Source of the DNA: a virus
Length of the DNA stretch: 38,245 nt
Strand: one strand, 5' to 3'
IMG/VR virus record: IMGVR_UViG_3300049255_000281
Span: 1 to 38,245 of that record
The notes beneath the pieces are model-generated. The model did not search any database. It was not told the origin of the DNA and saw nothing but the letters and a program-made list of their open reading frames with translations. How positions within the stretch are numbered: the first letter of the stretch is position 1; each line of letters starts with the position of its first letter. This document shows positions 6,982 to 37,316 of the stretch, one piece after another. Both the position numbers and the translations under genes were made by a program.

Positions 6982-7130
6982 CATCCTCCCCGCCCTGAAG
7001 GGCGGGGATTCCCACTTCACCGAAGCCAGCCAATGCGCACTTACATGCACACGGGACTTACAGCTTCTCCATGGGCTGACACCGCCAGTCCGGCGGCCAA
7101 AACATTGCGGGCGGCGTTTATGTCACGGTC
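6958..7130 (-). ncRNA. Predicted omegaRNA of TnpB copy 1
   Basis: TnpB elements make a guide RNA from the 3' end of tnpB through the right-end hairpin and into the flank. Here the scaffold would cover the last part of tnpB and the right end (hairpin 6988-7007), with the guide reading out beyond TCAA into phage sequence starting TCCTCTTCGGCCTGCTGAAA on the minus strand. The 5' limit is a guess. Basis: known biology of the family plus the seen hairpin; no transcript evidence. Confidence 0.45.
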
Positions 7131-8174
7131 GTGGATTGATCCACATTCCGGACATACCCACTCACGCACGCTGAGCGGCATCTTTGGCATGGTGTATCCA
7201 CAATCAAAGCAACGCTTTGACGACGGATACCATCTGTCGATGCCTATCAATTCACGCCCGTACCAGCGGGCCTTGTATTCCAGTTGCCGAACGAATTCAG
7301 ACCAGCCTGCATCGCTGATAGTCTTCGATAGGCAACGGTTCTTCTGCATGTTCGACACGGACAAGCTCTCAATGGCGATCACTTGGTTCTCGTTTATCAG
7401 CCTGGTTGATAGCTTGTGCAGGAAGTCCCTGCGAGCGTCCGCGATCTTCGCATGCACACGTGCAACTTTGAGCTTTGCCTTCTCTCGGCGGTTCGATCCC
7501 TTGGTCTTTTTGGCGAGCCGACGCTGTAGCTTCGCCAGCTTCTTTTCGTACCTGCGGAACGTGTTTGGTGCAGCGACCTTCTCGCCAGTAGAAAGGATGG
7601 CGAAGTGAGTAAGTCCAAGATCAACGCCAACCTTTCCATTCGAGGCGGGCTTCTTGGCGACCACATCGTCGCAAAGCAGGCTCACGAAGTACCGCCCGGC
7701 GGAGTCCTTGCTGACCGTCACGGTTGTGACCTTGGCGGCCTTCGGTATCTGGCGCGACCATCGAATGGCCAGCGGTTCGCTCATCTTCGCCAGCTTGAGC
7801 GACCTGCCATCCCACTTGAACGCGCTTGTCGTGTACTCCGCCGATTGAGGCCCATTCTTCCGCTTGAATTGCGGGTAGCCGGAGCGCTTGGCAAAGAAGT
7901 TGGCGAATGCGGATTGCAAGTGGCGAAGCGCCTGCTGGACAGGGACGCTGGACACTTCGTTGAGCCAAGCGTATTCGGGCTGCTTTTTGAGCGCCGTAAG
8001 TGCCGCAGAAGTTTCGTGGTATCCGATGCGCTCCTGCCGCTGCATCCATGCATCCGTCCGAAGACGAAGCATGTAGTTGTAAGCAAAGCGAGCGCAGCCG
8101 AACGTCTTGGCAAGAATCAATTCTTGCTCAGACGTCGGGTAGAACCTGAACTTGTACGCTCGCTTGATTTGCAT
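7041..8174 (-). CDS. tnpB: TnpB RNA-guided endonuclease, 377 aa
   Basis: TnpB cleaves DNA next to a short target motif using an RNA from its own element's right end, and favours retention of the element. The RuvC-like catalytic residues are all visible: Asp185 in VGVDLGL, Glu269 in VIAIESL, and Asp351 in HDRDINAARN. A zinc ribbon (Cys322/Cys325 and Cys341/Cys344) lies between the last two. The N-terminal region has the usual KFRFYPTSEQE start. Length is normal for the family and there are no stops or shifts, so it looks active. It is antisense to the surrounding late genes. It differs clearly in sequence from copy 2, so the two arrived separately or diverged long ago. Confidence 0.95.
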   Translation of the reverse strand: MQIKRAYKFRFYPTSEQELILAKTFGCARFAYNYMLRLRTDAWMQRQERIGYHETSAALTALKKQPEYAWLNEVSSVPVQQALRHLQSAFANFFAKRSGYPQFKRKNGPQSAEYTTSAFKWDGRSLKLAKMSEPLAIRWSRQIPKAAKVTTVTVSKDSAGRYFVSLLCDDVVAKKPASNGKVGVDLGLTHFAILSTGEKVAAPNTFRRYEKKLAKLQRRLAKKTKGSNRREKAKLKVARVHAKIADARRDFLHKLSTRLINENQVIAIESLSVSNMQKNRCLSKTISDAGWSEFVRQLEYKARWYGRELIGIDRWYPSSKRCFDCGYTMPKMPLSVREWVCPECGSIHDRDINAARNVLAAGLAVSAHGEAVSPVCM

Positions 8175-22639: not shown

Positions 22640-23572
22640 ATGCTTTTGAGTGCTTTGCTGTTAGACACCTTTGACCGCTGTCCCCGGCGCTATGCCCTTG
22701 AGCAGCAATATCAGCCCCGCGTGCTTTCTCCGCTCGCGCTGCTTTATGCCGGAGTGGAAGGCGGGTTGCTGGCCGACGACCCCTGCGAAGGGGCCAGGGA
22801 CGCCGTGCGGGCGCTGGCAGCGACCCGGGACATCGACTCGCCACATCTGGCAGCCATTTCCTGCGTGCGCCACGTAGGGCTGATGGCCGAGGTCATCGCG
22901 CTGGAACTGCGCCACAGGCTTGGCCTGCTTCATCGCCTTGCTCCCATGCCGTGGCACGGCCATGAATGGCAGTCCGCGCTGTTTGAAGACAAAAAAGGCC
23001 AGCTGCATCGCGTCATCCTGGTGGCCCACGTGGACGATGATGTGCTGCGGGGATTCGCTCACGCGTGGGGCACGGTAGGCGAGATGGCCGTACTCGAGCG
23101 AGACCTGAATCTCATCTTTGTGGCGATTGGCGCGCAGCGGCAGGGAAGGCGGCATTCGCATTGGACCAAGGGATTCCGGCACCCTGTGCAGCGTTCGGCG
23201 CTCAGGTTCGCCGCCAGAAAGAAGGCAAATGGATTTACCTCAGGATGGATGCCCGTCTGGAGAGACCAGACCGACATCCCGGCTGGGGTTTGGCTGAAGC
23301 AGATGCATGCCGATGATGTTCTGGGCGATATGGTGCAGTGGCGACGGATTTCCTACCGTCCGGACGACCAGAGAATCGAGCGGGCCAAAGACGATATCCT
23401 TGCGCTTTTGCCTAGCCTTGCGCAGGCGTCTCCTTCTTCGCCGATGCGTCGTTCGAGTTGCGACGACCCGATTCGCGGCGCGTGCGTATTTCAGGCGGTT
23501 TGCTGGACTCCGGCAGAGGCGGAGGAACTGGTACACCTGTATTCCCGGAAAGACGGCCCGCCATCATCTTAG
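22640..23572 (+). CDS. Cas4/RecB-like PD-(D/E)XK nuclease candidate with four-Cys Fe-S pattern, 310 aa
   Basis: The N terminus LLDTFDRCPRRYALEQQY matches the opening of RecB/Cas4-type nucleases. Cys14 there and three C-terminal Cys (274, 282, 288) reproduce the one-plus-three arrangement that binds a 4Fe-4S cluster in Cas4 and AddB. Possible core residues are Glu109, Asp132 (HVDDD) and Glu148 (GTVGEM), but the usual E-x-K lysine is not evident, so it may be inactive or divergent. The ATG at 22640 is used; the ribosome site is weak. Its last 161 bases overlap the opposite-strand poly-Pro gene. A role in DNA processing near virion genes is unexpected; the family call is moderate. Confidence 0.45.
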   Translation: MLLSALLLDTFDRCPRRYALEQQYQPRVLSPLALLYAGVEGGLLADDPCEGARDAVRALAATRDIDSPHLAAISCVRHVGLMAEVIALELRHRLGLLHRLAPMPWHGHEWQSALFEDKKGQLHRVILVAHVDDDVLRGFAHAWGTVGEMAVLERDLNLIFVAIGAQRQGRRHSHWTKGFRHPVQRSALRFAARKKANGFTSGWMPVWRDQTDIPAGVWLKQMHADDVLGDMVQWRRISYRPDDQRIERAKDDILALLPSLAQASPSSPMRRSSCDDPIRGACVFQAVCWTPAEAEELVHLYSRKDGPPSS

Positions 23573-23945
23573 CCGCAAGCGCGTCCAGTTGCGCAATCTG
23601 GGCTTCGGCGTCCCGCGCGGCCTCTTCCATCGACATCTTGGACAAAGACGGCCTTGGCGGTGGCGGCGGTGGTGGTGGCGGCGGTGGAAGTTCCTCTTTC
23701 TCGCTCTCTTCCTTCTTTTCGATGGTCCGCTGCCGCACCTTCTCTGCCGCTTCTCGCGCCAGCCGCTCTACCTCGTACTCTTCTACTTTCTTTTCAAACA
23801 CTTCCGTCAATGTGGCAAGGATAAAGCTCTGCACATCCCAACGGTGCTTGTAAGCCTGCTCGCACATAAACTCATAGAGGCGTACATCCTCCGGGCGCAG
23901 GAAGCTTAGCTGAATGCGGCGCTCGCCTTTACGCAGTTTGGCCAT
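23412..23945 (-). CDS. Ribbon-helix-helix-like protein with poly-proline linker, 177 aa
   Basis: The N-terminal 55 residues (GERRIQLSFLRPEDVRLYEF, then helices) resemble a short beta strand plus two helices, as in ribbon-helix-helix DNA-binding proteins. A charged helix follows (about 50-84), then eleven consecutive Pro residues (about 87-97), then a helical segment (MSMEEAARDAEAQIAQLDAL) and a disordered basic tail. Such a poly-Pro run would slow translation unless the host has EF-P, and forms a rigid spacer. It is the last gene of the minus-strand glycosyltransferase cassette and overlaps the nuclease-like gene tail to tail. Function unknown. Confidence 0.6.
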   Translation of the reverse strand: MAKLRKGERRIQLSFLRPEDVRLYEFMCEQAYKHRWDVQSFILATLTEVFEKKVEEYEVERLAREAAEKVRQRTIEKKEESEKEELPPPPPPPPPPPRPSLSKMSMEEAARDAEAQIAQLDALAAKMMAGRLSGNTGVPVPPPLPESSKPPEIRTRRESGRRNSNDASAKKETPAQG

Positions 23946-24111
23946 TCCAGTTCTCCAATACGCTTTTTGCCTGCTCGATTAGCCGCTCCGCCTCTTCCAG
24001 GTGCTGTGTGCGCACCTCGGCAAACGATTCCGTTTTCGCACTCGCAAGAAACACCAAGGCGTAGCTCAGGCGCTCGAGCACGGTGGCCAAAGGTCCTTTT
24101 AAATTCCCCAT
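23929..24111 (-). CDS. Small helical protein in the glycosyltransferase cassette, 60 aa
   Basis: All-helical, with heptad-like hydrophobic spacing (LATVLERLSYALVFLASAK, then HLEEAERLIEQAKSVLENW), so a helical hairpin or oligomer is likely. The ATG at 24111 overlaps the end of the glycosyltransferase gene by 13 bases, and its stop overlaps the next gene's start by 17. A longer in-frame start (24150) exists but would lie deeper inside the previous gene. No family recognised; a partner of a neighbouring product is a fair guess. Confidence 0.5.
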   Translation of the reverse strand: MGNLKGPLATVLERLSYALVFLASAKTESFAEVRTQHLEEAERLIEQAKSVLENWNGQTA

Positions 24112-24728
24112 TTTGTTTTGAAGGTTTCCTTTCCCGGGTCTCCGCCCCACATGGCCCGATAGAGTTTTGTGCGGTACTCCACCTGCAGCCCAACGCGGCG
24201 GTTCTGTGCCGCGTCGGAACGGATGGTCTGGCTGCCCTCATCATGGCCTACAGGGATGCCTGACTCCATTCTGGCATATCCGGATAGGTCCATGCGGCGG
24301 TAGAGGTCGCAATCCGAAGAGTAGTCAAAAAACAGCGTGTCATAGCCGCCAAGAGCATCCATCGCCTCTGTGTTGTAGGCACAGAGGATGTCGTAGTTAG
24401 TGTAGAGAACGCCCCATTTCGTTCCCTTTTCCTCCTCCTCCTCCGCTCTCTGGCAGAGCCTGTCCACGCTGTCGGGTTCAGGAACGGCATCGCAATGGCA
24501 CCAGAGGTAGAAGGGAACCGCCATGGCCTTTGCCAGAAGCAGCATCCAGTTCTGGGTCTGGGTGAAGGTAAGCGGCACCGTCGGGTAGAGAACGATGTCC
24601 TCAAACGTCAGACGGCATCCCGAATTGTTCAAAATCACAGGAACCGCATATTTTGCCTGCCGCAAAACCGTAAGCAGCCGCTCAAGCAAATCCAGACGGT
24701 TGACGTAAGGTACAAATACAGGAATCAA
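24099..24728 (-). CDS. Family 2-like (GT-A) glycosyltransferase, 209 aa
   Basis: Begins IPVFVPYVNRLDLLERLLTV, a typical nucleotide-sugar-binding strand and helix. Around residue 76 it has LWCHCDAVPEPDSVDRL, in which Asp80 sits where the DxD-type metal ligand is expected, and later DALGGYDTLFFDYSSDCDLY, like the acceptor-side acidic motif of family 2 enzymes. Start TTG 24728 is chosen because it overlaps the upstream stop as TTGA and follows GGGAGGGGG; the in-frame ATG at 24779 would give 226 residues. Likely substrate: a nucleotide sugar; the acceptor is unknown (host surface sugar, virion protein or DNA). Confidence 0.7.
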   Translation of the reverse strand: MIPVFVPYVNRLDLLERLLTVLRQAKYAVPVILNNSGCRLTFEDIVLYPTVPLTFTQTQNWMLLLAKAMAVPFYLWCHCDAVPEPDSVDRLCQRAEEEEEKGTKWGVLYTNYDILCAYNTEAMDALGGYDTLFFDYSSDCDLYRRMDLSGYARMESGIPVGHDEGSQTIRSDAAQNRRVGLQVEYRTKLYRAMWGGDPGKETFKTKWGI

Positions 24729-25888
24729 GCGACCCCCTCCCGAAACCACTGCTCCCACCGAGGCCATAGATTTTTCCAATCAAGCGATTCCGGTAAAAGA
24801 CTCTTTCTTGCTGTTTGTTTTGCCTCAAGCATCATGACTTCCACGCGGTCTGCCCAGTCTTCCGGCTGAAATACGGGACGCTTCGAGCAGAAGCCCCCTT
24901 CATAATGGAAAGCAATCGGAGGAACCAGCATGCGCTCCGGCGCGTAATCGGCTTGGGCCGCATACTTTCCTGTCACGCACGGCACGCCGCAGGCCAAACT
25001 CTCCATGATGGGATATCCCGCACCCTCCGGGCCGATGCCCATCGTAACATTGCAGGCCGCATACATCATGGACATCTGCTCATCCGTGTAGCGCTGCGTG
25101 GTTACGGCGACGCGGCCCAAAAGGCCGTAGTCCACAATCAGGTTTGGCAGAGACCAATGGCGCTCGAGCACGTCGGTATGGCACCAGAGGCGAACGTCAT
25201 GGCCGCGGTTCATGAGGATGTGCGCGACGGCAAAGGCCAGTTGCCAGTTCTTCCGCGCCTGATTGGTCGCCACCACGCCCAGCAAAAGAGAATCCTGGTT
25301 CAGCCCCTGAAACCCTCCGTCTATCATGCACTTACGGCTTTCCCTGCGGTCACGGGGAAAGAAGGTTTGTGTGTCGATGCCGTGGGGCAGCCAGTGCTTG
25401 TTTCCGGTAATCCTTGAGGAAAATTCGGAGTAGTCCAGAACCCGGTCAAAGCCCTTCATGGTTTCGGCGATGGACGAGGGAAGTTTTCCGAGAGGGCCTT
25501 CGGCGTCGATGGCGTGGTAGGCCCACTTCTTTACGTCCTTGCGCTCGGCAAAGCGGCGAAGATGCGGGATGGGGCATTTCTGCGGCGTTCCCAGCCAGTA
25601 CAGGCGGCTCATATCCCAGACAACCATTAAGATGCCTTCCCGCCCCTGTGCCCAGTCCTCCCAGACCTGCGGCAGTTCTGGTACCAGCCAGTTTGAAATA
25701 TCGTGGACGTGGTATTCCATGAAGGGAAGTTCCTGGTTTCCTACCCCTCCATAGCCAACCGCGGCTACGTCATACACATCTTGGCAGTGCTGGCTGAGGT
25801 GAAAAGCAAGGTCTCGGGTGATGCGGCCCAGTCCGGTGGTCGAAGATACGGCATCGGAAAGAAAAAGAATCGGGATTTTTTTATCCAT
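24725..25888 (-). CDS. Family 4-type (GT-B) glycosyltransferase, 387 aa
   Basis: N-terminal Rossmann half with FLSDAVSSTTGLGRITRDLA, the Gly-rich acceptor-side loop, and C-terminal half with the donor-binding elements NQARKNWQ (Lys213) and the E-x7-E motif EGAGYPIME (Glu288, Glu296) followed by SLACGVPCV. These are hallmarks of family 4 glycosyltransferases, and the length is normal. It is the first gene of a four-gene minus-strand cassette. The 71-base gap to the divergent tail-protein gene must hold the promoter, which I could not define. The cassette likely glycosylates a host envelope or virion target. Confidence 0.85.
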   Translation of the reverse strand: MDKKIPILFLSDAVSSTTGLGRITRDLAFHLSQHCQDVYDVAAVGYGGVGNQELPFMEYHVHDISNWLVPELPQVWEDWAQGREGILMVVWDMSRLYWLGTPQKCPIPHLRRFAERKDVKKWAYHAIDAEGPLGKLPSSIAETMKGFDRVLDYSEFSSRITGNKHWLPHGIDTQTFFPRDRRESRKCMIDGGFQGLNQDSLLLGVVATNQARKNWQLAFAVAHILMNRGHDVRLWCHTDVLERHWSLPNLIVDYGLLGRVAVTTQRYTDEQMSMMYAACNVTMGIGPEGAGYPIMESLACGVPCVTGKYAAQADYAPERMLVPPIAFHYEGGFCSKRPVFQPEDWADRVEVMMLEAKQTARKSLLPESLDWKNLWPRWEQWFREGVA

Positions 25889-25959: not shown

Positions 25960-28932
25960 ATGGTATACCTTCGGGCACTCTCAAAGGTTTTGTGTCTTTC
26001 TGCGGCGGCTTTAGGGCTTGCTCTGCCTCTGTTTGGGCAGATAGGCGTTGTGCAGGGACACTGCTATCAGGGAGGAACACCTGCAACGACTTCGGGGATG
26101 AGTTCCTCGAATTTCCTTCAGGGAATTATTCCGGCCTGCACGGTGACGGTATATCTGCACGGAACCACCACTCCGGCACAGATTTACACCCCAAGCGGAG
26201 GCACGCTGACCAATCCGTTCACGGCCAATGCGGTGCCCGGCGTTGACCCCGGAGGATGGGTATTTGCCGCGGCCACCAATCAGGCCCTCGACGTCGTGCT
26301 TTCCGGGGGAAACGGCAACCCCAATTGCACTACGCCCCCGCTCTGCTATGTCCAGCCCGTCACGCTGATTGATGTATTCCCTTCAGGCTCAGGCAGCGGC
26401 GGCCTGCCGCCCAACATCGCCTTCGGCGGCACCAATGCGTCCGGCACCTTTCAGGCCTCGCCCTACACTCCAGTCAACAAGGCTGGTGATACGATGACGG
26501 GCACTCTGAACTTCTCAAACCCTCCGCTCAGCTTTACTCAGGTCACGGCATGGGGTGATTCGCTGACCTGCGGCAATCAGGATGGTTCTGGTGGAAGCCT
26601 ATGCGGTTCTCCATCTACTGGATCGTGGACCAACATTGCCGCGACGCTGTTAGGCAAGCCCGTCTCCAATCAAGGTATTCCCGGTCAGACTTCTTCGCAG
26701 ATTGCTGTACGGGCCAATGCCTATGCAGGCACTTGGAAGCAGCAGGCCACGGTGAGCGGCAATACGATTCCTGCCTCTGGCGGCGTGACCATCACCTTTC
26801 CCACGGGCTACGAGCCTGCGATGAATACGAACCTGACCAATATGACGGTAGCCATCAATCTTTGCGGAGTGCGGGGCACGGTGGCTGACAATGGCTCGCA
26901 CGTATATACCTTCACGCGTACGACTTCAGGTTCTGCCGTATCGTGCCCAGCAAACTCGCAGTGGACTCCAGACTTGACTGGTCTGGTAGGTCCGAATGTG
27001 GTCGAAGTCATCGAAGCAGGATACAACAACCGGAGTGGTCCTTCGATTTCTACGGTGACGGCTGATGTTGCCGCCATGGTAGCAGCAGCTCGCTCACGTT
27101 CCAACGGCTACGTTGTAGTGGGCATCCCCAACGGCGATACAGACACCTGCCCGCTGTGCTCGCAGTACCTCATTAATGCAAATTACAACGCGGCCCAGGC
27201 AGCCACGTATGGCAGCGCCTTCTACGACCTCAACACAGACCTCGTGAACCACGGCAACCCGTCAGTCCCGGCAGATGCTTATCTTGCCTCCTATCACAAT
27301 GCTACGCCTCTTTCGCTCAAGGCATGGGATTTGCAGGGCAATCTTACCGCGCCGATTGGTACTACAGGATGTCCTGTTACGTGGACAGTCAACAGCCTCA
27401 ATGGCGGCGCTTCCATGATTATGTATGGCACAGCCATGTATTTTCCTGACAATGGCGAAATTATCTACCTGAATGACCAATACCTGAATAACCCGCCACA
27501 GTCCTGTATTCGCGGATTCAATGGGACCACCGCGGCAGCACACTCCGGAACAGCGGTCTTCTATGCCACTGATGGGTTGCACCTCAGCAGCTCTGCCAAG
27601 TCATGGGCCCCGCCACTCAATGGCAATCCCGGCTACACAGTCATGGCGAATGGCATTGTTAACACCATCAATAACGCTGTCCAGCCCATCAGCAACGTCG
27701 TCCTGCCTTCTTCCAATGGAATGGCCATTTCGTCTTCAGATGGCTCGAAAAGTCTGGGGTTTGTTTCTGGAGGTCTGCAATCGAACACCGGATTGTTATT
27801 TGCCGGAGGATGCACGAATTGTCCGGTTGGCACGGCCAACAACCCGGCCACGGGACTCTATGTACAGGAAAACTCGATCTACAATCTTGACCTGAATACA
27901 TGGAATGGCGGCGTTCTGGCGTCTTCCGGATATAACTTCCATACGGCCACATTCAATTTCTCTCTGTCGAATGCTGGCACTTCCGGGTACGTCAACACCA
28001 ACAACGCGGCCACGACTACCAGCGGCTCCGGCAGCGGAATGATTGTAGACGTGTTTGCCAATGGGACGCAGATTACAGGCGTGCTCATCCTCAATAACGG
28101 CACAGGATACAATGTAGGTGACAAGGTATACCCAATCGTTCCGGGTTCGTCCGGAGACGCCTACATCACGCTGATTGCTGCTCCGAACACCAATTTCGGC
28201 ATGATGGCCAGCGCAGGCGGCTTTGTGCCTTCGTGTCAGGGTTGCGCAGGCATCGGGGCGTCTAACGACCCATTTGGAGCGCTATATGTCAACGACCCTA
28301 CAGGGAATGGGAGTATCCAGCTGATTGCGCAGGGCGCGGTTCTACAGTCGAGCGCGGGATACTGGGGGGTAACAGGCGGTCTTATGCCCTACGTAAATAC
28401 CTATCCACAATTTGGCAACAGCGGCGGATATCAGTGGGGCAGCCTGTTTGTGAAGGGCCAGAGTTCCGGGCGCATCAATCTGACCAATGCGGGCAATGGC
28501 AGCATTATTGACCAGTCCGGAGGGGCATGGGGAATTACCGGAGGGGTTGGGCTGACGGGGGTACTGAATCTACAAGGCACATCATCGCCATTGTGGATGA
28601 ATAGCCAGCCTGGCACACCGGGTCAGGTGCTGACCTCTCAGGGGGCGGGCAACACGCCTATCTGGGCCAATCCTACAGGCCCTACCAAATACACGCCATC
28701 GTTCACGCCATCGGCGGTCGCGGCATCTTCCTGTGCTGAGCAGACATTTTCCCTGACGGGGCTAACGGTGGGGCAGTCGGTAACAGTCAATCCTCCATCC
28801 AGCCTTGCGCCTCATCTATGGATAGGGGGACAACGAGTCAGCGCAGCCAATACGTTAGCGATAGAGTTCTGCGGTGATGCCACGTCGGGTACTCCACCGT
28901 CTGGAGCTTGGATCGTGACGGCCTATCAATAA
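25960..28932 (+). CDS. Secreted-type tail protein with SGNH-hydrolase domain, 990 aa
   Basis: Residues 1-27 look like a classical signal peptide (basic start, Ala/Leu-rich core, ending LPLFGQ). A beta domain with a TVTVYLHGTTTPAQIYTPSG pattern follows, as in phage tail fibres, then KAGDTMTGTLNF (174-185), a common fibre motif. An SGNH/GDSL esterase domain spans about 193-545: Ser201 in GDSL, the GIPGQ block (239-243), Asn356/357 in GYNN, and Asp538/His541 in DGLHLS. The rest is beta-rich and ends with a fibre-like Gly/Pro segment (TPGQVLTSQGAG). It probably deacetylates or deacylates surface polysaccharide during adsorption. A signal peptide on a virion protein is odd. Confidence 0.7.
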   Translation: MVYLRALSKVLCLSAAALGLALPLFGQIGVVQGHCYQGGTPATTSGMSSSNFLQGIIPACTVTVYLHGTTTPAQIYTPSGGTLTNPFTANAVPGVDPGGWVFAAATNQALDVVLSGGNGNPNCTTPPLCYVQPVTLIDVFPSGSGSGGLPPNIAFGGTNASGTFQASPYTPVNKAGDTMTGTLNFSNPPLSFTQVTAWGDSLTCGNQDGSGGSLCGSPSTGSWTNIAATLLGKPVSNQGIPGQTSSQIAVRANAYAGTWKQQATVSGNTIPASGGVTITFPTGYEPAMNTNLTNMTVAINLCGVRGTVADNGSHVYTFTRTTSGSAVSCPANSQWTPDLTGLVGPNVVEVIEAGYNNRSGPSISTVTADVAAMVAAARSRSNGYVVVGIPNGDTDTCPLCSQYLINANYNAAQAATYGSAFYDLNTDLVNHGNPSVPADAYLASYHNATPLSLKAWDLQGNLTAPIGTTGCPVTWTVNSLNGGASMIMYGTAMYFPDNGEIIYLNDQYLNNPPQSCIRGFNGTTAAAHSGTAVFYATDGLHLSSSAKSWAPPLNGNPGYTVMANGIVNTINNAVQPISNVVLPSSNGMAISSSDGSKSLGFVSGGLQSNTGLLFAGGCTNCPVGTANNPATGLYVQENSIYNLDLNTWNGGVLASSGYNFHTATFNFSLSNAGTSGYVNTNNAATTTSGSGSGMIVDVFANGTQITGVLILNNGTGYNVGDKVYPIVPGSSGDAYITLIAAPNTNFGMMASAGGFVPSCQGCAGIGASNDPFGALYVNDPTGNGSIQLIAQGAVLQSSAGYWGVTGGLMPYVNTYPQFGNSGGYQWGSLFVKGQSSGRINLTNAGNGSIIDQSGGAWGITGGVGLTGVLNLQGTSSPLWMNSQPGTPGQVLTSQGAGNTPIWANPTGPTKYTPSFTPSAVAASSCAEQTFSLTGLTVGQSVTVNPPSSLAPHLWIGGQRVSAANTLAIEFCGDATSGTPPSGAWIVTAYQ

Positions 28933-28955: not shown

Positions 28956-29063
28956 ATGGAATTGCTACTGGCGCAAACGAGACCCATAATGAACGAAGGT
29001 CAACCATGTCGGCTACGAAGCGCAGAGATGATGAAGTCACGTGGGATGGAGTGGAGAACATGA
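28956..29063 (+). CDS. Possible 35-aa peptide overlapping the XhlA-like gene
   Basis: A short frame starting MELLLAQTRPIMNEGQPCRL, with a good ribosome site (AAAAGGAG, 28937-28944) 11 bases before its ATG. It overlaps the start of the next gene by 58 bases. No family or strong feature is visible. It could be a leader for the lysis cassette, or chance. Low certainty. Confidence 0.2.
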   Translation: MELLLAQTRPIMNEGQPCRLRSAEMMKSRGMEWRT

Positions 29064-29404
29064 TTTCAACGTACTACGAGAAGGTCATCCGCCCCGCGCA
29101 AGAGGAAACCCTTGCACAGCAGAGGGAAGAGCACAAGTCCAACACCGAGTGGCTTCAGCGGCTGGACACGGATTTAGCGGTTTTGAAGAAGGAATCCGCG
29201 CGGGTGCAGGCGTATGTGGAGGCATGGATTAAGAAGACGGATGCGGCCATTGACTCCATTTCGCGCACGCTGAGCGAGTGGAAGGGCAGCATAAGGACAA
29301 CGCTCTGGATTATCGTGTCTATCCTGATACCGATGTTTCTGATGGTTTCCGGCCTGTTCGCCGACCTCATCAAGTGGGGCATTGAGCAAAACTGGAAATA
29401 CTAG
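29006..29404 (+). CDS. XhlA-like coiled-coil membrane protein of the lysis cassette, 132 aa
   Basis: Charged helices over residues 10-92 (likely coiled coil), then a single strong transmembrane segment (about 96-120, TTLWIIVSILIPMFLMVSGL) and a short tail. This coiled-coil plus C-terminal anchor layout resembles XhlA/hemolysin-type lysis accessory proteins. It is the first clear gene of the lysis cassette and is followed at once by a holin-like gene. The start is supported by GAAGG upstream. Family assignment is by layout only. Confidence 0.6.
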   Translation: MSATKRRDDEVTWDGVENMISTYYEKVIRPAQEETLAQQREEHKSNTEWLQRLDTDLAVLKKESARVQAYVEAWIKKTDAAIDSISRTLSEWKGSIRTTLWIIVSILIPMFLMVSGLFADLIKWGIEQNWKY

Positions 29405-29428
29405 GAGAATAACTTAGGAGAAGAACTT

Positions 29429-29686
29429 ATGTGGAATCAAATCAAGCTTTGGATTCAGTCTAAAGGCGGATGGGCACATGCTCTTGCCGCAGTGTGGGCC
29501 TTCCTGGTGCTGGCCTACGCTTCGGTTGCTCCCTTCCAGCAGCTGGTGCTTTCGATTTATGGAGCCATGCCGCATTGGCTGCATGAGCTTTCCGCCGCTT
29601 TGGTTGGACTCGTCATCTTTTACCTGAACACCAACAAGTCCAGTGCTTCGGCCGAAGATACGCCGCCACACCACCGCGGCAGCTAA
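29429..29686 (+). CDS. Holin-like protein with two membrane segments, 85 aa
   Basis: Two hydrophobic segments (residues about 17-40, HALAAVWAFLVLAYASVAPF, and 52-68, HELSAALVGLVIFYLN) joined by a short loop, then a polar Ser/His/Asp-rich tail. Size and layout are those of a class II holin, which opens the inner membrane at lysis time. An AGGAGAAG ribosome site precedes the ATG. Neighbours (XhlA-like protein, lipoprotein, endolysin) support the role. Confidence 0.65.
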   Translation: MWNQIKLWIQSKGGWAHALAAVWAFLVLAYASVAPFQQLVLSIYGAMPHWLHELSAALVGLVIFYLNTNKSSASAEDTPPHHRGS

Positions 29687-29695
29687 AGAGGCACT

Positions 29696-29848
29696 ATGCT
29701 TTTCTTTGAGATTGTTCTTGCTGTTTTTATGGCTTTGGTCATTCTGAGTTTTCTGTACAAACCGAGGGTTTGTGCATTGTGCAACGGAAAAGGAAAATCG
29801 TCAGATGGTATCCGCTGCTGTCTATGCAGCGGGAAAGGAAAATTGTGA
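29696..29848 (+). CDS. Membrane-anchored microprotein with two CxxCxGxG zinc knuckles, 50 aa
   Basis: An N-terminal transmembrane helix (about 3-21, FFEIVLAVFMALVILSFLY) is followed by CALCNGKG and CCLCSGKG, two copies of the CxxCxGxG motif known from the DnaJ zinc-binding domain, in only 50 residues. One pair of motifs would bind a single zinc. A ribosome site (AAAGAGG) precedes ATG 29696, and the stop overlaps the next ATG (TGATG), so it is coupled to the lipoprotein gene. DnaJ itself is not implied; the motif acts in protein or thiol handling. A lysis-timing or membrane quality role is only a guess. Confidence 0.7.
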   Translation: MLFFEIVLAVFMALVILSFLYKPRVCALCNGKGKSSDGIRCCLCSGKGKL

Positions 29849-30456
29849 TGAAAGCTTATCTGCAAACGGCAGGGCTGGCCCTTTTGGCAGCCTGCATGAT
29901 TATCGTACCCACTGGATGCACCTCCGCATCCATCGAGAAGGCCGTCTCCGAGATTGATGCGTACCTGCCAACGGCCATTCAGTTGGCGCAGATTGTTATC
30001 TCCGCGGTCGGCGTGGCACAGTCGAACGGATTGTCGCCGGATGCGCAGAACACAGCCAACACGGTGATTGCCGACCTGAAGGAGCTTCAGACCCTGTGCG
30101 ATAGCTACCTTTCGCAGCCCCAGGGGGGAACATGGCAGAACATCCAGAATGTGCTGGAAACCATCCTTTCGGCCAATCAGCAGCAGCTTGAAGCCGCCGC
30201 CGGCATCAAGTCGCATGATGCCAAGAATGCCTATGTGGCCGCGATTACCTCGCTGAGCGCAGCGCTGGCCGTGATTGATGGATACATCAACACCACCAAA
30301 ACATCGGCGCAGCTGAAGACCAAGGCGCAGGCCCGGCAGGCAAAGCTGAGTGCTTACGTCCAAGTTTGGACGCCGCAGGACAAGGCCCGCATTTCGGCTG
30401 CTCTGGGTGTTCCTTACCCGGTGCTCGAGAAAGAGGCGCTGGCCTATGGGCTATAA
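29848..30456 (+). CDS. Predicted lipoprotein of the lysis cassette, 202 aa
   Basis: The first 24 residues form a lipoprotein-type signal (basic start, hydrophobic core, VPTGC with Cys24 as the lipidation site; Pro at -3 is not ideal). The remainder is helical and rich in Ala, Gln, Thr and Ile. Its location between holin-like genes and the endolysin would fit an outer-membrane spanin partner, but it is longer than usual o-spanins and no matching inner-membrane spanin is obvious, unless the 29006 product serves. Start 29848 is favoured by AAAGGAAA and the TGATG overlap. Confidence 0.6.
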   Translation: MKAYLQTAGLALLAACMIIVPTGCTSASIEKAVSEIDAYLPTAIQLAQIVISAVGVAQSNGLSPDAQNTANTVIADLKELQTLCDSYLSQPQGGTWQNIQNVLETILSANQQQLEAAAGIKSHDAKNAYVAAITSLSAALAVIDGYINTTKTSAQLKTKAQARQAKLSAYVQVWTPQDKARISAALGVPYPVLEKEALAYGL

Positions 30457-31192
30457 GTACGCTGCTCTGCGCGACAAGCCGGACAATCGGGACAAGGTTG
30501 TCCGGCTGCCCAATTCCGTCATCCTTCCTTCCCGCGTAGATTTGTCCGAGTGGGAGCCTCCGGTGACCGACCAGGGACAGGAAGGCAGCTGCACGGCTCA
30601 TGCTGGCGTGCGGATGCTCTCATGGCTCTACAAGAAAATCTACGGCGAGAGCTACATCTTTTCCCCGCAGTTTCTCTACCGCGCTGAGCGCATCTGCGAA
30701 GGGGATGTAAACGAGGACGGCGGAGCACAGAGCCGTACCCTGATGGCCGTGCTCAACGAAGTAGGCTGCTGTCTGGAATCCACTTTCCCCTATTCCGATG
30801 ACGGATGGAAGCAGCCTACCACAGAGGCCATGCTGGCCGAAGCGCACAAGTACAAAATTGGTGCCTACCACCGCGTGCCAGCACTGGACGTGCTCAAGTC
30901 CGTGCTTGCCTCACAATATCCCGTGGTCATGGGCATTGAGGTGTATGCTTCCTTCGAGTCTGATGCAGTAGCGGCGACCGGGAATGTACCTGTGCCGGAT
31001 ACTGGAAAGGAGCAGTTCCTGGGCGGCCATGAGGTGTTCTGCCATGGGTACGACGATTCCGCCCAAGTGCTGCTAATGACCAACAGCTGGGGCACAGGAT
31101 GGGGCGAACAAGGGCACTTTGCTCTGCCTTATGACTATTGGCCATATGTGATGGACGTCTGGATTGGACATATGGGAGCGCCGTGGCACTGA
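30446..31192 (+). CDS. Papain-like (C1A) cysteine protease, 248 aa
   Basis: All catalytic elements of the papain family are visible in order: the oxyanion Gln43 and nucleophile Cys49 in DQGQEGSCTAHA, His195 in GGHEVFCHGY, and Asn213 in NSWGTGWGEQG. No signal peptide or long pro-region precedes the domain, so it should be cytoplasmic or delivered another way. ATG 30446 follows AAAGAGG and overlaps the lipoprotein gene by 11 bases. It lies in the lysis cassette, between the lipoprotein and a small membrane protein. Its target is unknown: candidates are envelope proteins, host defence proteins or peptide cross-links. Confidence 0.85.
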   Translation: MGYKYAALRDKPDNRDKVVRLPNSVILPSRVDLSEWEPPVTDQGQEGSCTAHAGVRMLSWLYKKIYGESYIFSPQFLYRAERICEGDVNEDGGAQSRTLMAVLNEVGCCLESTFPYSDDGWKQPTTEAMLAEAHKYKIGAYHRVPALDVLKSVLASQYPVVMGIEVYASFESDAVAATGNVPVPDTGKEQFLGGHEVFCHGYDDSAQVLLMTNSWGTGWGEQGHFALPYDYWPYVMDVWIGHMGAPWH

Positions 31193-31302
31193 AGGCGATG
31201 TTGCAGGCCATCCTGCTGCTCGTGGCACTGATGGGAGCGATAGCGGCCGCTGGTGCGCTTTTCGTTCTGACACTGAAGCTTGCTGAGCTTCTCCGCCTCT
31301 AG
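31183..31302 (+). CDS. Small membrane protein of the lysis cassette, 39 aa
   Basis: One strongly hydrophobic segment (about 7-35, QAILLLVALMGAIAAAGALF) in a 39-residue protein. GTG 31183 follows GGGAG five bases upstream and overlaps the protease stop by 10 bases; an in-frame ATG lies at 31198. The stop at 31300-31302 is part of the ribosome site of the endolysin gene. It could be a pinholin-like or antiholin-like partner. No family was recognised. Confidence 0.55.
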   Translation: MALKAMLQAILLLVALMGAIAAAGALFVLTLKLAELLRL

Positions 31303-31309
31303 GAGCACT

Positions 31310-31840
31310 ATGCTATCGCCGGCACAAGTCGCGTTTGCGCAAAACGTTGTTGCGCAGGCTAAGCTTTCCTCGCACCCTTTCCCGGGATATGCAGCCGCAG
31401 AGGCCTGCCTTGAAAGCGCATGGGGCCAGTCTGAACTCTGCATCCAGGCCAACAATATCTTTGGCCTGAAGGTGCCAACAGCATGGAGCGGCCCCACCTT
31501 GACCCTGCCTACCCATGAAATTGAGAATGGGCAGGTGAAGGAAGTCGAGGCTGTTTGGCCGGTATTTGACTCCTACCTGGATGCGTTTCAGGAGCGCCTA
31601 AGGGTGCTGCAGCACCCGATGTATGCGCAGGCTTTGGCCGCGAATACCGGAGAAATGTTTGTGCGCGACGTTTCTGGGGTGTTTGAGCCTGCCTCGGCTC
31701 CCGGAAACAACACCTTTCGCTTCAGCGATGGTCTCTACCGCTGGGTAGCTTCCCGATGGTCTACCGACCCTGCGCGGGCCAGCAAGGTTCTGGCCATCTA
31801 CAACGCGCATCCTCAAATTTTTGCACAATGCCAGGATTAG
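31310..31840 (+). CDS. GH73-type endolysin (glucosaminidase/muramidase-like), 176 aa
   Basis: Residues about 27-54 carry the family signature YAAAEACLESAWGQSELCIQ..NNIFGLK, in which Glu35 is the expected catalytic acid and NNIFGLK is the diagnostic segment of FlgJ/LytG-type enzymes. No signal peptide is present, so it would reach peptidoglycan through the holin. The ATG follows AGGAG directly after the previous stop. It is the last plus-strand gene before the minus-strand early genes; its end overlaps the chimeric minus-strand gene at 31761-32015. Confidence 0.85.
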   Translation: MLSPAQVAFAQNVVAQAKLSSHPFPGYAAAEACLESAWGQSELCIQANNIFGLKVPTAWSGPTLTLPTHEIENGQVKEVEAVWPVFDSYLDAFQERLRVLQHPMYAQALAANTGEMFVRDVSGVFEPASAPGNNTFRFSDGLYRWVASRWSTDPARASKVLAIYNAHPQIFAQCQD

Positions 31841-36066: not shown

Positions 36067-36230
36067 TGGCGTGGACGTGTTCTCCATTGACATCCTCCCC
36101 CGCCTGAAGGCGGGGGATTCCAGCAGCGCCAACCATGCTACGCATGTTGAACGCCCTGTCGGTTCGCACTTCTCGGACAGTTGGCTTTCCGCTCCGTAGA
36201 GCGGACGGCTCTTACACCGTCTCCATGCGC
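36067..36230 (-). ncRNA. Predicted omegaRNA of TnpB copy 2
   Basis: By analogy with characterised TnpB systems, the RNA would cover the end of tnpB and the right-end hairpin (36097-36116), with the guide in the flank beginning TGGAGAACACGTCCACGCCA on the minus strand. The 5' end is an estimate. Confidence 0.45.
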
Positions 36231-37316
36231 TGTCACGGCATGCCCTGCCGCCAAAATGTTCACCGCTGCATTCGCGTCGCGGTCGTGGATTGTGCCGCAT
36301 TCCGGGCACGACCATTCCCGCACGCTCAGCGGCAGTTTCTCAACGAGGTATCCGCAGTCGGAACAGGTCTTCGAGGATGGGAACCAGCGGTCGATCTTGA
36401 CCACGGTTTTCCCGTATCGCTCGGCCTTTTCTTCGATCATGCGGATGGCCGCCCCGATGGATGCGTCGTGCAACGAGCGGGCAAGGCTGTGGTTCTTGGC
36501 CATGCCGCGCAGGTTGAGGTCTTCGACGCAGATCACATCGAAACGGGTTACAAGATCTGTGCTCAGCTTGTGCAGCGTGTCGAGGCGACTGTTGGCAATC
36601 TTCTCGTAGATGCGGGCAACTTGACGCTTGACTTTCTCGCGCCTCTTGCTGCCCTTCTTCGCCCTGGCAAGGCGCTTCTGATAGAACGCCAGCCGACGTT
36701 TCCACTTGGCCCCATACTTCGGGTTGCTGATGCGCTCGCCGTTGCTCAATGTGGCAAGCCGCGCAACACCAAAGTCGATACCAACCGCTTCGCCCGTTTT
36801 GGGCAGCGGCGCAGGCTGAGTTTCCACCACCAGCGACACGAAGTATTTCCCGCTCGCGGTGCGGATCAGGCGCACAGAAGATGGATGTGGGATGCGCTTC
36901 CGCGACCACTTCACCTTGATGGCACCGATCTTGGCCAGCTTGAGAACACGCCGCTCAGGGTCGAACGAGAATCCGCGCTCGGTGTAGTTGGCCGACTGGC
37001 GTGCATCCTTTCGCTTGAATGCCGGATAGGCGGCTCGCTTGGCAAAGAAGTTGGAAAACGCGGTCTGCAAGTCACGCAGCGACTGCTGCAAGCAAACACT
37101 GGACACTTCATTCAACCAGACGTGCTCAGGCGTTGCCTTCAGCGCCGTAAGCGCCTTGTCGGTTTCCGGGTAACTCATACGCTTACCGGCGCGGAACGCA
37201 TCTGTGCGAGCACGAAGTGCCCAGTTCCAGACGAACCGCACGCAGCCAAACGTCCGGCTCAGGTGTTCTTCCTGTTCCGGTGTCGGGTAGCAGCGGAAGG
37301 TCCATCTGGATTTCAT
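36138..37316 (-). CDS. tnpB: TnpB RNA-guided endonuclease, 392 aa
   Basis: The RuvC-like residues are complete: Asp181 in VGIDFGV, Glu265 in VICVEDLNLRGM, and Asp347 in HDRDANAAVN. The zinc ribbon uses Cys318/Cys321 and Cys337/Cys340. The N-terminal region opens with FRCYPTPEQEEHL, as in the family. No internal stops or shifts, so it looks functional. The C-terminal tail (about 365-392) is basic and reaches into the right-end region from which the guide RNA would derive. It shares architecture with copy 1 but is clearly divergent. Confidence 0.95.
   Translation of the reverse strand: MKSRWTFRCYPTPEQEEHLSRTFGCVRFVWNWALRARTDAFRAGKRMSYPETDKALTALKATPEHVWLNEVSSVCLQQSLRDLQTAFSNFFAKRAAYPAFKRKDARQSANYTERGFSFDPERRVLKLAKIGAIKVKWSRKRIPHPSSVRLIRTASGKYFVSLVVETQPAPLPKTGEAVGIDFGVARLATLSNGERISNPKYGAKWKRRLAFYQKRLARAKKGSKRREKVKRQVARIYEKIANSRLDTLHKLSTDLVTRFDVICVEDLNLRGMAKNHSLARSLHDASIGAAIRMIEEKAERYGKTVVKIDRWFPSSKTCSDCGYLVEKLPLSVREWSCPECGTIHDRDANAAVNILAAGHAVTAHGDGVRAVRSTERKANCPRSANRQGVQHA

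Follow-up and report, generated by a model that had tools for sequence, protein, structure and literature searches.

A xylellain-type cysteine peptidase gene paired with a lipoprotein gene in the lysis cassettes of probable Acidobacteria phages

The peptidase gene and its cassette

The window, which is the whole stretch of DNA analyzed, is a virus contig of 38,245 bases. A gene for a papain-family (C1A) cysteine peptidase lies in its lysis cassette (29006-31840), beside an endolysin gene and genes for holin-like transmembrane (TM) proteins, a position also seen in the group loci described below. The genes of the cassette, with the first gene 5' of it, are as follows:

25960..28932, + strand: tail-fibre/GDSL-like protein, 990 aa, with an N-terminal Sec-like hydrophobic segment; first gene 5' of the cassette
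29006..29404, + strand: coiled-coil-like protein with a C-terminal TM segment, 132 aa; weak match to PHROG "hemolysin" (E = 0.018)
29429..29686, + strand: TM protein, holin candidate, 85 aa; resembles the protein at the same place in locus L010 (E = 7e-9)
29696..29848, + strand: 50-aa ORF with one TM segment and two CxxC.GKGK motifs; PHROG 3931 (unknown function)
29848..30456, + strand: predicted helical lipoprotein, partner gene of the C1A gene, 202 aa; 11-nt overlap with the C1A gene
30446..31192, + strand: xylellain-type C1A cysteine peptidase (papain family), 248 aa, ATG 30446 to TGA 31192
31183..31302, + strand: small single-TM ORF, 39 aa from GTG or 34 aa from ATG 31198; overlaps the C1A stop by 10 nt
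31310..31840, + strand: glucosaminidase-type endolysin, 176 aa; PF01832 (E = 2.7e-14), PHROG endolysin (E = 9e-17); no signal peptide was found in it

The two CxxC.GKGK motifs of the 50-aa ORF inside the cassette recall half a DnaJ zinc domain. In 13 of the 22 loci that have a fibre/GDSL-like ORF 5' of the cassette (the window and 12 subgroup loci), the encoded protein has an N-terminal Sec-like signal that ends in FAQ/FGQ; it may be an exported fibre or a secreted depolymerase. Elsewhere in the window, a glycosyltransferase gene (24725-25888, minus strand; PHROG 2170, E = 3.5e-19) and two more minus-strand ORFs (23412-24767) sit between the structural genes and the fibre gene, and the glycosyltransferase insert is possibly a moron. 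Two minus-strand transposase ORFs, TnpB-like by eye, match PHROG 506: one at 7041-8174 in the structural region (E = 8e-146) and one at 36138-37178 near the contig end (E = 2e-116).

The ATG at 30446 is preceded by AAAGAGG. The ORF listing also offers a longer reading of 280 aa from GTG 30350, but the start at 30446 is preferred on grounds of homology and the ribosome site. The encoded protein passed the Pfam cutoff for PF00112 Peptidase_C1 (60.3 bits against 20.7; E = 3.7e-16), matched PHROG 16701 "peptidase" (E = 2e-18) and, among PDB sequences, matched xylellain (3ois; phmmer E = 2.8e-31). The best Foldseek matches of its AF2 model (pLDDT 86.6, pTM 0.84) were 3ois_A/B (E = 5e-22/7e-22, TM 0.86-0.88). 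The active-site residues, oxyanion Gln43, Cys49, His195 and Asn213, are in register and unchanged in 77/77 aligned relatives. PF00112 was the sole Pfam match above cutoff, no peptidoglycan hydrolase domain was recognized in the protein, and the fold match is to C1A. By profile, active site and modeled fold, the protein is thus assigned as a xylellain-type C1A peptidase, and it is presumably an active cysteine endopeptidase. An earlier note on this DNA had described a complete C1A triad with its oxyanion Gln, the absence of a signal peptide, overlaps with a lipoprotein gene and a small membrane protein gene, and a place in a lysis cassette. All of this holds: a search for an N-terminal hydrophobic segment in the peptidase found none, the overlaps measure 11 and 10 nt, and the cassette contains the Glucosaminidase/PHROG endolysin.

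Xylellain, the C1A enzyme of Xylella fastidiosa, and other short bacterial C1A peptidases share the fold and active site of the window protein and, like it, have a short N-terminal segment in place of a long propeptide. The window peptidase differs from xylellain in its location in a phage lysis cassette, its lipoprotein partner and its C-terminal HxGxPW motif (HMGAPW in the window).

The HxGxPW subgroup and its lipoprotein

The earlier note also called a papain-type protease unusual in a phage lysis module. What stands is the lysis setting, since in many phages the genes of one subgroup occur together with those for endolysins, holin-like proteins and lipoproteins; the gene type as such is no novelty and often has no lysis link. 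Xylellain-type C1A genes have already been reported in tailed phages (Caudoviricetes), and the accessible part of that report states no lysis role for them (PMC10380794). Relatives were found in at least 195 IMG/VR contigs by an alignment-based search, as against one by a single-protein pattern search, and in host genomes a first scan returned none and a second 378. Both phages and bacteria commonly carry xylellain-type C1A genes, mostly without a lysis link. The gene stands alone or in a tRNA cluster in huge phages and in Shaeky. In the family as a whole, among the matches listed, about 15 peptidoglycan-hydrolase genes were found among 265 immediate neighbors, compared with a single peptidoglycan-binding match in 133 control genes at a distance of 5-8 places. 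The proposition that every phage C1A gene is a lysis gene was rejected on two counts: isolated genes in LR756511, FLC9 and Shaeky, and the low hydrolase count, about 15 of 265 among the matches listed. Links to lysis that are independent of the subgroup do occur: the C1A domain of MMB025 is fused to an Rv2525c-type glycoside-hydrolase-like domain and PG_binding_1, and the gene directly follows that of a GH25 endolysin in THSA-485A and that of a holin in Mufasa8. A viral predicted structure with N-acetylmuramidase in its title (a name only) includes the C1A fold.

After dereplication, 38 sequences, that of the window protein included, carry an HxGxPW-like motif at the C-terminus. In a tree of 170 proteins, all 40 rows with the motif or the lipoprotein fall in one set of 43 (SH-aLRT 95), inside which the order is uncertain. 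A homologous lipoprotein is encoded no more than three genes away in 28 of 38 motif-positive loci versus 2 of 143 other loci (Fisher p = 3e-22, a property of the group and not of independent events, because the loci are related). With an HMM, lipoprotein homologues were found beside the C1A gene in 30/40 group loci, and when divergent lipobox proteins are counted too, a ~200-aa lipoprotein is present within three genes in 36/38 testable loci versus 6/58 viral C1A loci outside the group. C1A loci from 200 Acidobacteriaceae genomes served as an internal control: the four with the motif (L201, L202, L209, L211) all adjoin the lipoprotein gene, and those without it (L203-L208, L210, L212) also lack the lipoprotein. 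The subgroup includes Acidobacteriaceae and Terriglobia chromosomal loci and soil or peat viral contigs, and for this reason the host of the window phage, a soil phage, is probably a member of the Acidobacteria.

The subgroup is also enriched for lytic enzymes. Among the matches listed, Pfam peptidoglycan hydrolases account for 23/127 neighbor genes in the subgroup versus 4/127 around viral C1A genes outside it (p = 1e-4, or p = 0.02 once ten copies of a single chromosomal M15 locus are left out). The 23 comprise Peptidase_M15_3 (10), Hydrolase_2 (7), M15_4/VanY (3), and one each of lysozyme, SLT and glucosaminidase. These Pfam counts are used in place of those from a local hydrolase search (21/38 group versus 7/143 other loci), which are biased by seeds drawn largely from the group itself. 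Five endolysin types adjoin the lipoprotein-C1A pair (glucosaminidase, SLT, Hydrolase_2, M15_3 and M15_4/VanY), a mix which indicates that the endolysin varies and the pair is constant. The gene order is SLT, 2-TM protein, lipoprotein, C1A in L047; M15, lipoprotein, C1A in L048; and Hydrolase_2, TM protein, lipoprotein, C1A in L010 and L058. No recognized endolysin was found within the stretch read in group loci L035, L051, L064 and L067. In sum, the window C1A is no isolated oddity; it belongs to a conserved lipoprotein-peptidase element found in the lysis cassettes of phages whose hosts are probably Acidobacteria.

The lipoproteins are highly divergent, and their alignment has no conserved stretch. 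In the 36 listed, a Cys ends an N-terminal hydrophobic segment and the strict lipobox varies; the lipobox of the window copy is imperfect, with two candidates (LAAC16 and PTGC24), and its homologues mostly have good ones. A second, non-terminal hydrophobic stretch is present at residues 115-140 in most group lipoproteins and near residue 129 in the window copy, whose neighbor in the cassette, the 132-aa protein, has its TM segment at the C-terminus. Fold prediction of the lipoprotein from the single sequence was poor (pLDDT 47). A twin-arginine motif occurs in 9/36 lipoproteins; the window copy lacks it, and Tat hitch-hiking of C1A on the lipoprotein was rejected as a general export route on that account. 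A profile search detected the lipoprotein in 35 of the 200 Acidobacteriaceae genomes; C1A is missing from most of these, and the idea that the lipoprotein needs C1A was rejected as well. It is commoner than C1A and in several of these genomes stands alone between host genes; the two are therefore not bound to occur together, and a role in lysis may not hold at every site. The lipoprotein may be, on an equal footing, a partner, tether, substrate or regulator of the peptidase, or a neutral, independent neighbor.

Chromosomal blocks and a second protein in the peptidase slot

Ten Acidobacteriaceae/Terriglobia genomes carry a chromosomal block in the order fibre-like protein, M15_3, 2-TM protein, (1-TM protein), lipoprotein, C1A (loci L117, L119-L123, L125, L127, L130 and L202). 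The block appears to occupy one conserved place, with sucB-like and glnS-like genes flanking it wherever the contig reaches them. Nine of the ten genomes were searched whole, and each has one copy. Comparison of eight copies gave dN/dS values of 0.11 (C1A), 0.17 (lipoprotein) and 0.17 (M15); the block is under purifying selection. A terminase-like ORF was seen by eye upstream of the block in genome G003 and is absent from the matching stretch of G004. By eye, a terminase-like ORF is nearby in L197 and in L235/L240/L245. The block is apparently an inherited, useful remnant of a phage lysis block, perhaps a domesticated lysis cassette that is part of a GTA-like or tailocin-like element.

In 7 of 20 Acidobacteriaceae lipoprotein loci read, the lipoprotein gene adjoins a gene for a ~230-aa protein in which a HELLE motif is invariant. 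These host loci (L231-L250) lie between gatA-like and cysS-like genes. The HELLE family is also present in 65 viral contigs (L251-L315), and in at least three phages (L251, L253, L254) its gene comes directly after that of the lipoprotein; in L253, genes for a small 2-TM protein and for a product with a likeness, judged by eye, to a GH108 endolysin come before it. The search of 62 HELLE loci found no C1A gene in any of them, and PHROG, Pfam and PDB gave no useful match for the HELLE protein. Its HExxE motif is the basis for regarding it as perhaps a metallopeptidase. If that is right, two unrelated peptidases occupy one slot, which supports a peptidase function for the position after the lipoprotein.

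Possible roles of the peptidase in lysis

The reading that we hold to be somewhat probable, from gene content and order, is that C1A serves as an accessory lysis peptidase of Acidobacteria phages, which gets to the envelope together with the endolysin and works there in concert with the lipoprotein or close to it. The peptidase, which has no signal peptide, would be made late and accumulate in the cytoplasm like the neighboring endolysin until the holin opens the inner membrane and lets it reach the periplasm. There it would cut envelope proteins (e.g., outer-membrane or peptidoglycan-anchoring proteins, or the partner lipoprotein), and the envelope would disintegrate through this cutting once the endolysin had cut the wall. 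The lipoprotein conserved alongside the enzyme probably anchors it, receives it or regulates it. Late cytoplasmic synthesis, holin release and an envelope target are the steps that we infer from established lysis biology, and protease activity and lipoprotein-C1A contact are likewise presumed. That most structural genes of the window are without annotation was counted against this reading. The pattern suggests that, in some phages, a true protease helps to break open the host envelope.

Known systems offer partial parallels. Mycobacteriophage LysB is an esterase that detaches the mycolic outer membrane (PMC6116114); as an extra envelope enzyme beside the endolysin that acts on an outer layer it resembles the proposed C1A role by analogy only, being a lipid esterase and not a protease, with no homology. 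As with spanins (Rz/Rz1 and unimolecular; PMC6139136), the partner gene encodes an envelope lipoprotein and lies next to genes for an endolysin and holin-like proteins, and a second hydrophobic stretch is common in the product. The partner lipoprotein differs in being ~200 aa and helical, with 50-70 residues past the hydrophobic stretch; it matched no spanin family, and its predicted topology recalls unimolecular spanins without membership among them. Nor do spanins carry a protease, unlike the lipoprotein-C1A pair.

Other readings place the peptidase differently. The overlap of the two genes, their conserved adjacency and the occupation of the same slot by the unrelated, possibly peptidase, HELLE family would suit a regulatory pair that sets lysis timing, in which C1A acts specifically on the lipoprotein, or is inhibited or tethered by it, and is not a degradative enzyme. 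We consider this unlikely: C1A has no export signal and the lipoprotein is exported, so that the two should meet only after the membrane opens, the lipoprotein is found without a peptidase, and the lipoproteins are too divergent to reveal a conserved cleavage site. Purifying selection on the chromosomal block and retention of lipoprotein homologues between gatA-like and cysS-like genes of Acidobacteriaceae would suit a superinfection-exclusion or host-fitness module that is placed in the late region and is no lysis factor; the recurrent neighbors are, however, peptidoglycan hydrolases and small TM proteins, in the sucB-glnS block as well, and such a module is decidedly unlikely.

It is very unlikely that C1A is part of the virion, in the tail or as an injected protein, and digests proteins at the host surface or inside the cell on entry. 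A tail-fibre-like gene is just upstream of the cassette and some distant relatives lie near T4-like portal and capsid genes, but C1A is a small stand-alone enzyme inside the endolysin/TM block in the window and the group loci alike. An endolysin role, with C1A itself cutting peptidoglycan, is highly improbable. To our knowledge no C1A enzyme does so, the window protein matches C1A/xylellain and not the CHAP, NlpC/P60 or amidase families, and the cassette already has an endolysin. Against these points stand the fusion in MMB025 to glycoside-hydrolase-like and peptidoglycan-binding domains, annotated as an endolysin, and the papain-family N5 domains of mycobacteriophage LysA (PMC3314691). The latter also put a papain-family domain in a phage lysis enzyme, but N5 is a C39-like domain inside a peptidoglycan endolysin and the window C1A stands alone. 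The disarming of a host factor, also raised in the earlier note, is unsupported but conceivable.

The accessory lysis peptidase reading has a wider and more doubtful extension, in which Acidobacteria phages would use a lipoprotein plus an exchangeable peptidase (C1A or HELLE) as the last lysis step, destroying outer-envelope proteins enzymatically in place of spanins, with the module domesticated in host chromosomes. How the outer membrane of diderm hosts gives way to phages without recognizable spanins is a question raised by a survey in which no spanin was found in 91 of 677 phages and another route of outer-membrane disruption was called for (PMC6139136). Acidobacteria are one of the most abundant soil phyla. 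If the accessory role is true, a proteolytic envelope step and a new lipoprotein family would provide a directly testable answer for spanin-less lysis, and a function would be assigned to part of the phage xylellain-type C1A family.
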